Program-made: the position numbers and the translations under genes
In this document: positions 28,169-36,018 of the stretch, piece after piece
Layout: each line of letters begins with the position of its first letter
How positions within the stretch are numbered: the stretch's first letter is position 1
DNA from: Alphaproteobacteria bacterium
GTDB lineage: Bacteria; Pseudomonadota; Alphaproteobacteria; Rhodospirillales; Rhodospirillaceae
Direction of reading: 5' to 3'
NCBI GenBank assembly: GCA_030604885.1
Contig: JAUVUZ010000012.1
Location: 1 to 64,000 of the forward strand
Length of the DNA: 64,000 nt
The notes under the pieces: model-generated
What the model was told of the DNA's origin: nothing
Databases searched by the model: none
What the model saw: the letters and a program-made list of their open reading frames with translations, nothing else

Positions 28169-30094
28169 ATGGCCAACGAAATCTGTCTGATCGCGCCCTA
28201 TGCCGAGCTGGCGGCGGTGGCGCGGCAGGTGGCGGGCAGCGTGCCGCGCGGCTTCGACGTCCGCACCGCCAACCTCGAGGACGCCCCGGCGCTGCTGCCG
28301 GAGATCGAGGCGGCGGGCTATCGCGTGCTGGTGAGCCGGGGCCGCACCGCCGAACTGCTGCGCAAGCACACCTCGCTGCCGGTGATCGGCATCCGCATCG
28401 ACAGCTTCGACGTGCTGCGCGTTCTCGCCGACCTGATCGGCAAGCCCTGCCGCATCGCCATCGTCGGCCACGGCGGAATTCTCCGCGATCTCGCGCGCAT
28501 GGCCGAAACCCTCGGCCTCGAAGCCTATTCCATCCTGTTCGAGCAGACCGACGCCCTCGAATACGAGCAGCTGCAGTCGGTGGTGCGGGCGCGGCTGGCG
28601 CGCGACCCGGTGGACCTGATGATCGGCGACACCATCCCCCAGAGCCGGTTCGCGCCGCTCTGCCCCGAGTTCCGGCTGATCTCCTCCGGCCCCGAGAGCG
28701 TCGTCAAGGCGCTCGAGAACGCCGCCGCGCTGCTCGACGCGGTGGACCTCGAACGGGTCAACCGCGACCACCTCTCCACCGTCCTCGACCTGTTCGAGAA
28801 GGCGGTGTTCTCCCTCGACCAGGAGGGCCGGGTGGTGCACGCCAACCGCGCCGCGACCCTCGCCTTCCGCATGAGCCGGGCGGAGATGATGGGGCGGCCG
28901 GTGGAGGCGGTGGACCCGGCGCTGGCGATCGCCCACGACACCCTGGCGCGCGGCGTGTGGGAGGTGGGGCCGGTGGTGGAGACCCGCTTCGGGCGGATGG
29001 TGTGCTACCTCTACCCGATCGTCTCCGACGGCGTCGGGCGCGGCATGGTGTTCGCGCTCGAACGGGTGGAGCGGATCTACACCGTGGAGCAGAAGATCCG
29101 CCACCAGGAGCGGGAGCGCAACCGCTTCGTCGCCCAGTATCGGCTGGAGGACTACATCACCCGCGACGCCGAGATGCGCCGCCGCCTCGCCCAGGTGCGG
29201 CGCTACGCCGCCACCGACGCCACCCTTCTCGTCACCGGCGAAAGCGGCACCGGCAAGGAGCTGCTGGCCCAGGGCATCCACCGCGCCAGCCGCCGCGCCG
29301 AGGGGCCGTTCGTGGCGGTGAACTGCGGCGCGTTTCCGCCGACGCTGCTGGAAAGCGAGCTGTTCGGCTATGTCGAGGGCGCGTTCACCGGCGCCTCGCG
29401 CAAGGGCAAGAAGGGGGTGTTCGAGCTGGCCCACACCGGCACCCTGTTCCTCGACGAGGTGGGCGAGCTGGAAAAGTCGCTCCAGACCCGCCTGCTGCGG
29501 GTGATCCAGGAGCGCGAACTGATGCGCCTCGGCTCCGAGCAGCCGATCCCGGTGGACATCCGCGTGATCGCCGCCTCCAACAAGAACCTCGAGGAGATGG
29601 TCGCGGCGGGCACCTTCCGCGAGGACCTGTTCTACCGCCTCAACGTGCTGAAGTTCGAGACCGTGCCGCTGCGCCAGCGCCCCGACGACATCGTGCCGAG
29701 CGCGCTGTTCGCCCTGCGCCGCCACGCCCAGGCCCACGCCAGCGTCGCCGCCGACCTCGCCCCCGACCTCCGCCGCGCCCTGGCCGCCTATCCCTGGCCC
29801 GGCAACTTCCGCCAGCTCTCCAACGTGATGGAGCGTATCGCGATCCTCGCCGACCGTCCGGTGGTGACGCTCGCCGAGGCGCGCCCGGCCCTGGCCGATC
29901 TCGACGGCCCGCGTCCCCGCGCCTGCGGCTGCGGCTGCGACGTGCTCGACGGCGGCATGGAGGACATCCGCGCCCGCGTCGTCGCCCGGGTGCTGGCCGC
30001 CGAGGGCGGCTCGCGCAGCCGCGCCGCCCGCCGTCTGGGGGTGGACCGGGGCACCCTGGCGCGCTGGCTCAAGGAACCGGGCGCCGCCGAATAG
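28169..30094 (+). CDS. sigma-54-dependent activator with PrpR-type N-terminal sensor
   Basis: The protein has 641 residues. Residues 1-190 are a PrpR_N ligand domain ([21 protein letters not shown] and IVGHGG), followed by a PAS domain (about 205-300). The AAA+ domain has Walker A GESGTGKE (near 357-364), sigma-54 contact loop GAFTGA (404-409), and Walker [11 protein letters not shown]. The Fis-type HTH at the end reads [18 protein letters not shown]. PrpR relatives sense small hydroxy/carboxylic acids. A near-perfect -24/-12 promoter lies 92 bases past its stop, before the kdgT-lar genes, so it is very likely their activator. An odd CGCGCD cysteine stretch lies between the AAA+ and HTH domains. 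Confidence 0.95.
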
Positions 30095-30104
30095 ATGTGG
30101 CGTT

Positions 30105-30141
30105 TTCCCGCATCGCTGCGGCAAACTGCAGCAGTCGGGAA
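30105..30141 (+). promoter_or_regulatory. nested inverted repeats, probable activator binding site (UAS)
   Basis: Outer arms TTCCCG (30105-30110) and CGGGAA (30136-30141) enclose two perfect small palindromes, CCGCA-TCGC-TGCGG (30108-30121) and ACTGC-A-GCAGT (30125-30135). They lie about 50-80 bases upstream of the -24 element, the normal place for a sigma-54 enhancer. Confidence 0.5.
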
Positions 30142-30185
30142 CCTGCCTTCTGGATCATCCGGTTGAAATGCCGGAAATTTCTCCC

Positions 30186-30200
30186 TGGCACGCAGATTGC
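30186..30200 (+). promoter_or_regulatory. sigma-54 (-24/-12) promoter of the kdgT-lar operon
   Basis: TGGCACG-CAGA-TTGC matches the RpoN consensus TGGCACG-N4-TTGC exactly, with the invariant GG and GC 10 bases apart. The KdgT-type start is about 100 bases downstream. Confidence 0.85.
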
Positions 30201-34018: not shown

Positions 34019-34019
34019 G

Positions 34020-34817
34020 ATGCCGACGACCGAGCTTCAGGCCCGCCTGGTGGCGGCGCTGGATCGCCACCCGGCGCTGGCGGTGGCGGTCTCCGGCGGG
34101 GTGGACAGCATGCTGCTGGCCTACGTGGCGCACCGCCTGTCCCGCACCGAGATGACGGCGGTGCACGCCCGCTCCGCCGCGGTTCCGGCGGAGGCGACGG
34201 CGCGGGTGGAGGCCCACGCCGCCCGCCACGGCTGGACCCTGTGGCTGGTGGACGCGGGCGAGCTGGCGGACCCGGCCTACCGCGCCAACCCGGTGGACCG
34301 CTGCTTTTTCTGCAAGACCAACCTCTATCGCCGCATCGCCGCCGCCACCGGCCGCACCATCGCTTCGGGCACCAACCTCGACGACCTCGGCGACTTCCGC
34401 CCCGGCCTCGCGGCGGCGCGCGACCACGGCGTCGTCCACCCGTTCGTCGAGGCGCGGCTGACCAAGGCGGACATCTACGCCCTCGCCGCCGCCCTCGGCC
34501 TCGACGACCTCGCCGCCTTGCCCGCCCAGCCCTGCCTCGCCAGCCGCGTCGAGACCGGCATCCCGGTGGACGCGGACACCCTCGGCTTCATCGAGGCGGC
34601 GGAGCGCGACCTGGCGCAGGCGCTGCCCGACGCGGGCGCGCTGCGCTGCCGCGTCACCGCCGCCGGGGTGGTGGTGGAATGCGAGCGCCTGCCCGAGGGC
34701 GCGGCGCGTGCCCTGGCGATGGCGCGCATGGACGAGCGCTGCGCCGCCGCCGGGCGGCGCTTCGCGGGCATCCGTCCCTACCGTCGCGGCGCCGCGTTCC
34801 TGCGCGCCGCCGAATGA
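34020..34817 (+). CDS. larE: LarE ATP-dependent sulfur insertase
   Basis: The protein has 265 residues from ATG 34020, one base after the larC stop. The PP-loop SGGVDSMLLAY lies at residues 25-35, the CFFCKTNLY motif gives C95/C98, and PCLASRVETG gives C172. LarE adenylates the pyridinium dicarboxylate and swaps its carboxylates to thiocarboxylates. The single-Cys type sacrifices the Cys equivalent to C172; the presence of CxxC plus C172 fits the type reported to hold a [4Fe-4S] cluster for catalytic sulfur transfer. That sub-type assignment is inference. Confidence 0.94.
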   Translation: MPTTELQARLVAALDRHPALAVAVSGGVDSMLLAYVAHRLSRTEMTAVHARSAAVPAEATARVEAHAARHGWTLWLVDAGELADPAYRANPVDRCFFCKTNLYRRIAAATGRTIASGTNLDDLGDFRPGLAAARDHGVVHPFVEARLTKADIYALAAALGLDDLAALPAQPCLASRVETGIPVDADTLGFIEAAERDLAQALPDAGALRCRVTAAGVVVECERLPEGAARALAMARMDERCAAAGRRFAGIRPYRRGAAFLRAAE

Positions 34818-34839
34818 CCAGCCTTCCAGGAGATTTCCG

Positions 34840-36018
34840 ATGAAAATCGTCATCGCCCCGGATTCGTTCAAGGAAAGCCTCTCGGCCCTGGCGGCGGCAC
34901 GCGCCATCGAGGCGGGCTTCCGCGAAATCTTCCCCGATGCGGAGTACGTCAAGGTGCCGGTCGCCGACGGCGGCGAGGGCACCGCCGAAACCCTGGTGGA
35001 GGCCACCGGCGGCACGATGGTGCGCCTGAGCGTCACCGGCCCGCTCGGCACGCCGGTCGAGGGCTTTTTCGGCCTTTCCGGCGACGGCGGGCTGGCGGTG
35101 ATCGAGGCGGCCGCCGCCAACGGCCTGATGCTGGTGCCGCGCGAGCGGCGCGACCCCCGCGTCACCACCACCTTCGGCGTCGGCGAGCTGATCCGCGCCG
35201 CCCTCGACCGGGGCGCGCGGCACCTGATCGTCGGCATCGGCGGCAGCGCCACCAACGACGGCGGCGCGGGTATGCTCCAGGCCCTGGGGGTGAAGCTGCG
35301 CGACGCCGAGGGGCACGACCTCGGCTGCGGCGGCGCGGCGCTGGCGGGCCTCGCCGCCATCGACGCCTCGGGCCTCGATCCGCGCCTGAAGGATTGCCGG
35401 GTGGAGGTCGCCTGCGACGTGGACAACCCGCTGTGCGGGCCGAAGGGCGCCTCGGCGGTGTTCGGCCCGCAGAAGGGCGCGACGCCCGAGATGGTGCGGG
35501 AACTGGACGCCAACCTCGCCCGCTTCGCCCGCCTCACCCACGAGACCCTCGGCGTGGCGGTGGACGCGGCCCCCGGCGCCGGGGCGGCGGGCGGCCTGGG
35601 CGCGGCGCTGCTGGGCTACCTCGGCGCCGAGCTGCGGCCGGGGGTGGACATCGTCACCCGCGCCGTCGGCCTCGCCGAGGCGGTGCGGGACGCGGACCTG
35701 GTGATCACCGGCGAGGGCCGCATCGACGGCCAGACCGCCCACGGCAAGACCCCGATCGGCGTGGCGCGGGTGGCGCAGCGCTTCGGCAAGCCGGTGATCG
35801 GCATCGCCGGGTGCCTCACCGACGAGGCGGGGGAGGTGCACGGCCACGGCATCGCCGCGGTGTTCAGCGTGCTCGACCGCTCCTGCACGGTGCAGGAGGC
35901 GCTCGCCAACGCGGAGCGCAACCTGCGCGTCGCCGCGCGCAACATTGCCGCGGTGCTCGCCCTCGGCGCGGCGCTGCCGGGCGCGGGCGCGGATTTCCTG
36001 GCGGCGGTGCCCGCCTGA
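34840..36018 (+). CDS. garK: glycerate 2-kinase (GarK/GlxK family)
   Basis: The protein has 392 residues; ATG 34840 after CCAGGAGA opens MKIVIAPDSFKESLSALAAA, the family N-terminus. PVADGGEGTAETLVEATGG, GIGGSATNDGGAGMLQALG and GAGAAGGLGAALLGYLGA are diagnostic. It phosphorylates D-glycerate to 2-phosphoglycerate. The neighbouring gudD-garL-garR and garD pathways deliver D-glycerate to it, and the upstream LarA homologue may supply glycerate or another precursor. It is the last gene of the sigma-54 operon, and its stop is only 3 bases from the stop of convergent larB. Confidence 0.95.
   Translation: MKIVIAPDSFKESLSALAAARAIEAGFREIFPDAEYVKVPVADGGEGTAETLVEATGGTMVRLSVTGPLGTPVEGFFGLSGDGGLAVIEAAAANGLMLVPRERRDPRVTTTFGVGELIRAALDRGARHLIVGIGGSATNDGGAGMLQALGVKLRDAEGHDLGCGGAALAGLAAIDASGLDPRLKDCRVEVACDVDNPLCGPKGASAVFGPQKGATPEMVRELDANLARFARLTHETLGVAVDAAPGAGAAGGLGAALLGYLGAELRPGVDIVTRAVGLAEAVRDADLVITGEGRIDGQTAHGKTPIGVARVAQRFGKPVIGIAGCLTDEAGEVHGHGIAAVFSVLDRSCTVQEALANAERNLRVAARNIAAVLALGAALPGAGADFLAAVPA

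Follow-up and report, generated by a model that had tools for sequence, protein, structure and literature searches.

LarA racemases and their nickel-pincer nucleotide (NPN) cofactor are known; in the lar system of Lactiplantibacillus plantarum, LarA1 is found with the maturation genes for LarB, LarC and LarE. Glycerate racemisation by LarA homologues has been published in vitro, with efficiencies of 1.1e5 per M per s for LarAH43 of Enterocloster asparagiformis, whose reported activity on glycerate equals or exceeds that on lactate, and of 6e3 for LarA1 (PMC11770544). The high glycerate activity of LarAH43 was tied by the authors to a Q at the T359 position (PMC11770544, PMC7583248), and the physiological significance of the reaction was left to be determined (PMC11770544). 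In the aldarate and glyoxylate routes (GarR, GlxK), D-glycerate is made from aldarates or glyoxylate and channelled into glycolysis by glycerate kinase. Here we describe, in a 64,000-nucleotide stretch of a purple-bacterium-like alphaproteobacterial genome (contig JAUVUZ010000012.1, hereafter the window), an operon that combines these elements, kdgT-larA-larC-larE-glxK, and which we lean towards reading as a route for L-glycerate uptake, racemisation to D-glycerate and conversion to 2-phosphoglycerate. In contrast to the known routes, the racemase would here supply the kinase from the L-enantiomer; unlike the L. plantarum system, the operon lacks lactate genes, includes a KdgT permease and GlxK, and is under sigma-54 control. 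In the open-access literature, taken apart from supplements such as the genome-context table of PMC7583248, neither an operon linking KdgT, glycerate kinase and LarA nor an in vivo glycerate racemase was found. A preliminary description made from the window's letters alone had proposed this linkage as new, which holds within that literature for the catabolic connection to glycerate kinase, but not for the interconversion of L- and D-glycerate, which was already published.

The five genes lie on the + strand between 30299 and 36018 (Table 1), with larA and larC overlapping by 4 bases, larC and larE separated by 1 base, and larE and glxK by 22 bases. Matches to family profiles agree with the operon, strand and gene order as first described, with two amendments. 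The range of 28169-36018 given for it is right for the genes from kdgT on, but its start is that of the regulator gene, which lies upstream of the promoter and outside the kdgT transcript. Likewise, LarA, LarC and LarE were rightly listed, but LarB was omitted: its gene is convergent with glxK (36022-36702), with its stop 3 bases beyond the glxK end, a layout repeated in two related loci (L012, L118; here and below, L, G and C numbers denote our loci, genomes and contigs). Besides LarA, GlxK is the sole catabolic enzyme of the operon, and it scores well above its family cut-off.

LarA contains both domains of its family (Lar_N, 189.4 bits against a cut-off of 23.3; LarA_C, 62.0 against 25), and the conserved residues noted earlier are all in place, namely the catalytic H108 and H175 and the NPN ligands K185 and H201, together with the ligand R74 and with Y296, Q297 and K300. 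Among solved structures it is closest to LarAH2/SAR of Isosphaera pallida (PDB 9eia, 9eid, 9eif; 347 bits, 46% identity over 415 residues), with L. plantarum LarA (189 bits) and Mar2 (184 bits) scoring lower. Catalytic, NPN-binding and carboxylate-binding residues are the same as in LarAH2, as are the pocket residues M, W and Q, the first loop position being L in LarAH2 and F in the window. Read off this homologue at 46% identity, the specificity positions are F176, M177, W360 and Q361. According to published signatures, lactate racemases carry F, F, W, E/Q and SAR enzymes F/L then M; gluconate epimerases have E, V, A, H, malate racemases H/Q, K and hydroxyglutarate racemases Y, F, H/Q, T (PMC11770544, PMC7583248). 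The small-acid signature of groups 1-3 is a loop F or L followed by M, or F followed by F, then W and E/Q (PMC7583248). The F, M, W, Q of the window LarA thus place it, as predicted from these residues, in the lactate/short-chain (small-acid) SAR-like type; they differ from the malate and hydroxyglutarate pockets and from that of D-gluconate 2-epimerase (GntE), and both malate racemase models fail (NF052593, 297 against 500 bits; NF052595, 267 against 462). LarAH43, compared by its published description, shares the Q at the T359 position but falls, as a member of the lactate racemase group, in the LAR branch. This small-acid pocket argues for a C3 acid and against sugar-acid epimers, so that a hexonate or uronate epimerase was ruled out. 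An enzyme interconverting either sugar-acid or glycerate stereoisomers had been suggested at first; the sugar-acid half falls with the pocket, whereas the glycerate half is favoured by the C3-type pocket, by a GlxK-lar linkage that occurs without adjacent aldarate genes, and by D-glycerate genes in an Accumulibacter-type sigma-54 unit, both described below.

The gene set for the NPN cofactor is complete, as judged from profile scores, with LarB, LarE and both halves of LarC (LarC1 and LarC2 models) above cut-off. LarE has an SGGVDS motif and the CXXC-C cysteines C95, C98 and C172; this motif has been linked to a [4Fe-4S], non-sacrificial type (PMC9283937), to which the window LarE probably belongs. 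A second NPN-dependent enzyme, an NCBIfam group 22 isomerase (L105:5255-6574, G000:C2; 490 bits against 400), is encoded beside a TctC-type binding protein elsewhere in the window genome and probably shares the cofactor made by the lar locus, because LarE and LarB each turned up in a single copy in the genome.

The assignment to sigma-54 control was confirmed on two sides. The activator encoded upstream combines Sigma54_activat (230 bits) and PrpR_N (104 bits) with PAS, AAA and a Fis-type helix-turn-helix; it fails the PrpR propionate regulator equivalog (TIGR02329, 357 against 499 bits), and copies 66-88% identical to it adjoin kdgT or larA in L012, L014, L019, L087 and L118. The -24/-12 site TGGCACGCAGATTGCG, located 97 bases upstream of kdgT at the operon head, is the single site matching at least 11 of 12 consensus positions on both strands of the window, and its score was reached by none of 1000 shuffles. 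It is kept at the same position in two same-genus genomes and tracks the operon head where this has shifted in relatives, lying before kdgT in L014 and L017 (11/12), before glcG in L018 (12/12) and before a hydroxypyruvate-reductase-like gene in L015 and L016 (11/12). In L123 and L124, where a DeoR-type regulator replaces the activator, no good -24/-12 site was found.

Conservation of the linkage was followed in 80 LarA relatives (69-85% identity). In a tree built by a quick search with no bootstrap, the LarAs found beside KdgT form one clade (13 of 85 tree rows, 11 of them with KdgT; SH-aLRT 96), the distant LarAs of L123 and L124 standing apart. Where larA had 5 kb of sequence on either side, KdgT was encoded nearby in 8/9 loci of the clade and in 0/46 others, and GlxK in 5/9 against 0/46 (Fisher p 4e-5, with kinship ignored), to which the window and G200 add further cases. 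The glxK gene takes three different places: it can follow larE, follow larB or lie upstream of kdgT. In L015 and L016 (Accumulibacter-type), one sigma-54 unit encodes a hydroxypyruvate-reductase-like protein, GlcG/HbpS, GarR (487 bits against 397), GlxK, KdgT, LarA, LarC, LarE, LarB and DUF1537, the first of these being a D-isomer 2-hydroxyacid dehydrogenase that resembles hydroxypyruvate/glyoxylate reductase but scores below the cut-offs. Hydroxypyruvate/glyoxylate reductase, GarR and GlxK all make or use D-glycerate.

The permease, too, is linked to racemases. The kdgT product scores only 155 bits against 454 for the 2-keto-3-deoxygluconate transporter equivalog (TIGR00793), and every copy at least 65% identical to it from whole-genome searches adjoins a larA. 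This subfamily was found in 3/317 genomes of the order, larA-adjacent in each, and 399 genomes across the phylum yielded two more (74-75%), where KdgT stands beside a LarA 38-39% identical to that of the window. In these two genomes of another class (G620, G362; L123, L124), KdgT heads a larA-larE-larB-larC operon, and L123 also encodes a member of the 3-hydroxyisobutyrate-dehydrogenase family and a 745-aa fusion of DUF1537 with PdxA2. The distant LarA of such operons has the pocket F, F, W, Q. As one KdgT subfamily thus accompanies two dissimilar LarAs, it appears to share a substrate with the LAR/SAR-type racemases.

Gene content and order, the promoter, the catalytic residues, the pocket type and the recurrent linkage of KdgT, LarA and GlxK are read directly from sequence. 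From linkage and pocket type together we infer glycerate as the substrate and, with it, what the permease carries, what induces the operon and in which direction flux runs. The PrpR-type activator would sense an acid and switch on the sigma-54 promoter, and the KdgT-family permease would take up glycerate. LarB, LarE and LarC would assemble the NPN for LarA, in which H108 and H175 would serve as acid and base while a proton-coupled hydride transfer turns L-glycerate into D-glycerate. GlxK would then phosphorylate D-glycerate to 2-phosphoglycerate, which enters glycolysis, so that no further catabolic enzyme would be required, and on balance the operon may well be a catabolic unit complete in itself, serving L-glycerate or a mixture of D- and L-glycerate. 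The wider proposal that the KdgT subfamily is an L-glycerate permease, the LarA clade a true in vivo glycerate racemase and the PrpR_N-type activators glycerate-responsive seems to us evenly poised.

GlxK could instead be present only for the glucarate/galactarate pathway next to the operon, LarA being unrelated to glycerate. The preliminary description was right about this pathway (39-48 kb): GudD, an HpaI/GarL-type aldolase and GarR are encoded on the - strand, 3 to 6 kb away and ending in D-glycerate, whereas the + strand encodes galactarate dehydratase and a transporter of the Tct type. In the same-genus L012 and G200, however, the lar-glxK operon persists, and no GarR, GarL or GudD was found within about 6 to 17 kb of it. 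GlxK therefore belongs with lar and not with the aldarate set, whose adjacency looks incidental; the GlxK-KdgT-LarA linkage is moreover found again in other families, which leaves this explanation very improbable.

Several observations weigh against glycerate. GlxK is not nearby in 3/8 fully flanked loci with both KdgT and LarA, and the window genome encodes a second glycerate kinase, of MOFRL type and convergent with a GntP-family permease (L104:452-3092, G000:C37); GlxK as the sole glycerate kinase was thereby ruled out, and the pair is a possible second glycerate route. In addition, I. pallida LarAH2 favours lactate and 2-hydroxybutyrate over L-glycerate (PMC11851776). The pocket F, M, W, Q, common to the window LarA and 79/80 related loci, is invariant across lactate and glycerate contexts in the clade, so that these residues fail to separate the enzymes. 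For instance, identical pockets occur in Rhizobiaceae-type LarAs encoded in an L-rhamnose/L-fucose non-phosphorylative cluster (L041, L050, L054, L065, L076, L080, L081, L083, L088), beside a 2,4-didehydro-3-deoxy-L-rhamnonate hydrolase-like protein, an L-fuconolactonase-like protein, a GlcD-like oxidase and a Liv-type transporter. The known product of the 2,4-didehydro-3-deoxy-rhamnonate hydrolase family is L-lactate, which suggests that these LarAs convert L-lactate to D-lactate at the end of the sugar pathway.

The window LarA might accordingly be a racemase of lactate or of short-chain 2-hydroxyacids in general, with KdgT importing lactate-like acids and GlxK as an unrelated passenger; LarA would then supply LutABC with L-lactate made from D-lactate or, running the other way, supply a GlcD-type oxidase. 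In addition to the LAR/SAR-type pocket and the Rhizobiaceae-type relatives, this is favoured by the distant LarA of the other KdgT operon, which passes the lactate racemase equivalog NF033504 (536 against 460 bits), and by the window genome, which encodes LutA-LutB-LutC (LUD_dom) and two GlcD-like oxidases; a real LldD was looked for in this genome and not found. The early statement that lactate catabolic genes are absent thus holds in the 64-kb window but was overturned for the genome, whose LutABC makes growth on lactate a possibility. LutABC sits on another contig (C3), however, and the window LarA itself fails NF033504 (344 against 460), and so do the related LarAs of L014 and L081. Lactate permease and lactate dehydrogenase were seen neither in the operon nor in the KdgT-clade operons examined, and the GlxK linkage recurs in differing gene orders. 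We consider a lactate role unlikely.

Four-carbon acids are the other candidate. LarA would then epimerise D-erythronate/D-threonate at C2 to supply a DUF1537 kinase and PdxA2, and KdgT would import threonate or erythronate. DUF1537 and/or PdxA2 are indeed encoded near KdgT-LarA in L014, L015, L016, L018 and L123, KdgTs of 41-49% identity mostly adjoin them, and LarA homologues weakly epimerise 4-deoxythreonate (PMC11770544). Neither is nearby in the window, G200, L012, L017, L019 or L124, however, and the DUF1537-PdxA set of the window genome has a separate regulator and transporter. For those members of the lactate racemase group that have been tested, efficiency with 4-deoxy C4 acids is about 4 to 1400 times lower than with glycerate, and GlxK would be left unexplained. 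We regard this reading as quite unlikely, less credible than the lactate one.

If the glycerate route is real, it would give glycerate racemisation in the LarA superfamily its first physiological role, as far as the searched literature goes. Many LarA homologues have an in vitro activity and no assigned role, and a permease-racemase-kinase operon makes the question testable. The operon also offers a substrate hypothesis for this KdgT subfamily and its PrpR-type regulator, which automatic annotation would tend to label as a 2-keto-3-deoxygluconate permease and a propionate regulator.

Table 1. Features of the glycerate kinase-linked lar locus and of the neighbouring aldarate genes (window coordinates)
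Feature	Position	Strand	Basis or remark
sigma-54-dependent activator gene	28169..30094	+	PrpR_N + PAS + AAA + Fis-type HTH; likely operon regulator
-24/-12 promoter TGGCACGCAGATTGCG	30186..30201	+	11/12 consensus match
kdgT, KdgT-family permease, Lar-linked subfamily	30299..31435	+	PF03812 286 bits
larA, predicted NPN-dependent 2-hydroxyacid racemase	31497..32783	+	domains, catalytic and pocket residues
larC, fused LarC1-LarC2 nickel insertion protein, His-rich insert	32780..34018	+	TIGR00299 173 bits, NF052512 94 bits
larE, sulfur insertase	34020..34817	+	TIGR00268 240 bits
glxK, glycerate kinase	34840..36018	+	TIGR00045 519 bits (cut-off 168), PF02595 514 bits
larB, cofactor carboxylase/hydrolase, convergent with glxK	36022..36702	-	NF033503 228 bits (cut-off 175)
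garR, tartronate semialdehyde reductase, outside operon	39000..39887	-	TIGR01505 401 bits, above cut-off
HpaI/GarL-type aldolase gene	39902..40666	-	335 and 309 bits, under both equivalog cut-offs
glucarate dehydratase (GudD) gene, start approximate	40722..42062	-	TIGR03247 797 bits, just under cut-off 829
galactarate dehydratase gene	45424..46944	+	TIGR03248 831 bits (cut-off 731)

Elsewhere in the window genome, a DUF1537 kinase, a PdxA homologue, an iron alcohol dehydrogenase, a GntR regulator and a Tct transporter (L101:6462-9690, G000:C46) constitute a separate four-carbon-acid pathway. An arsenic cluster adjoining the operon (22840-27270) encodes an ArsR-ArsC fusion, ArsD and ArsA with several ATPase stretches, together with a SaoE-like efflux permease (22840-23907).

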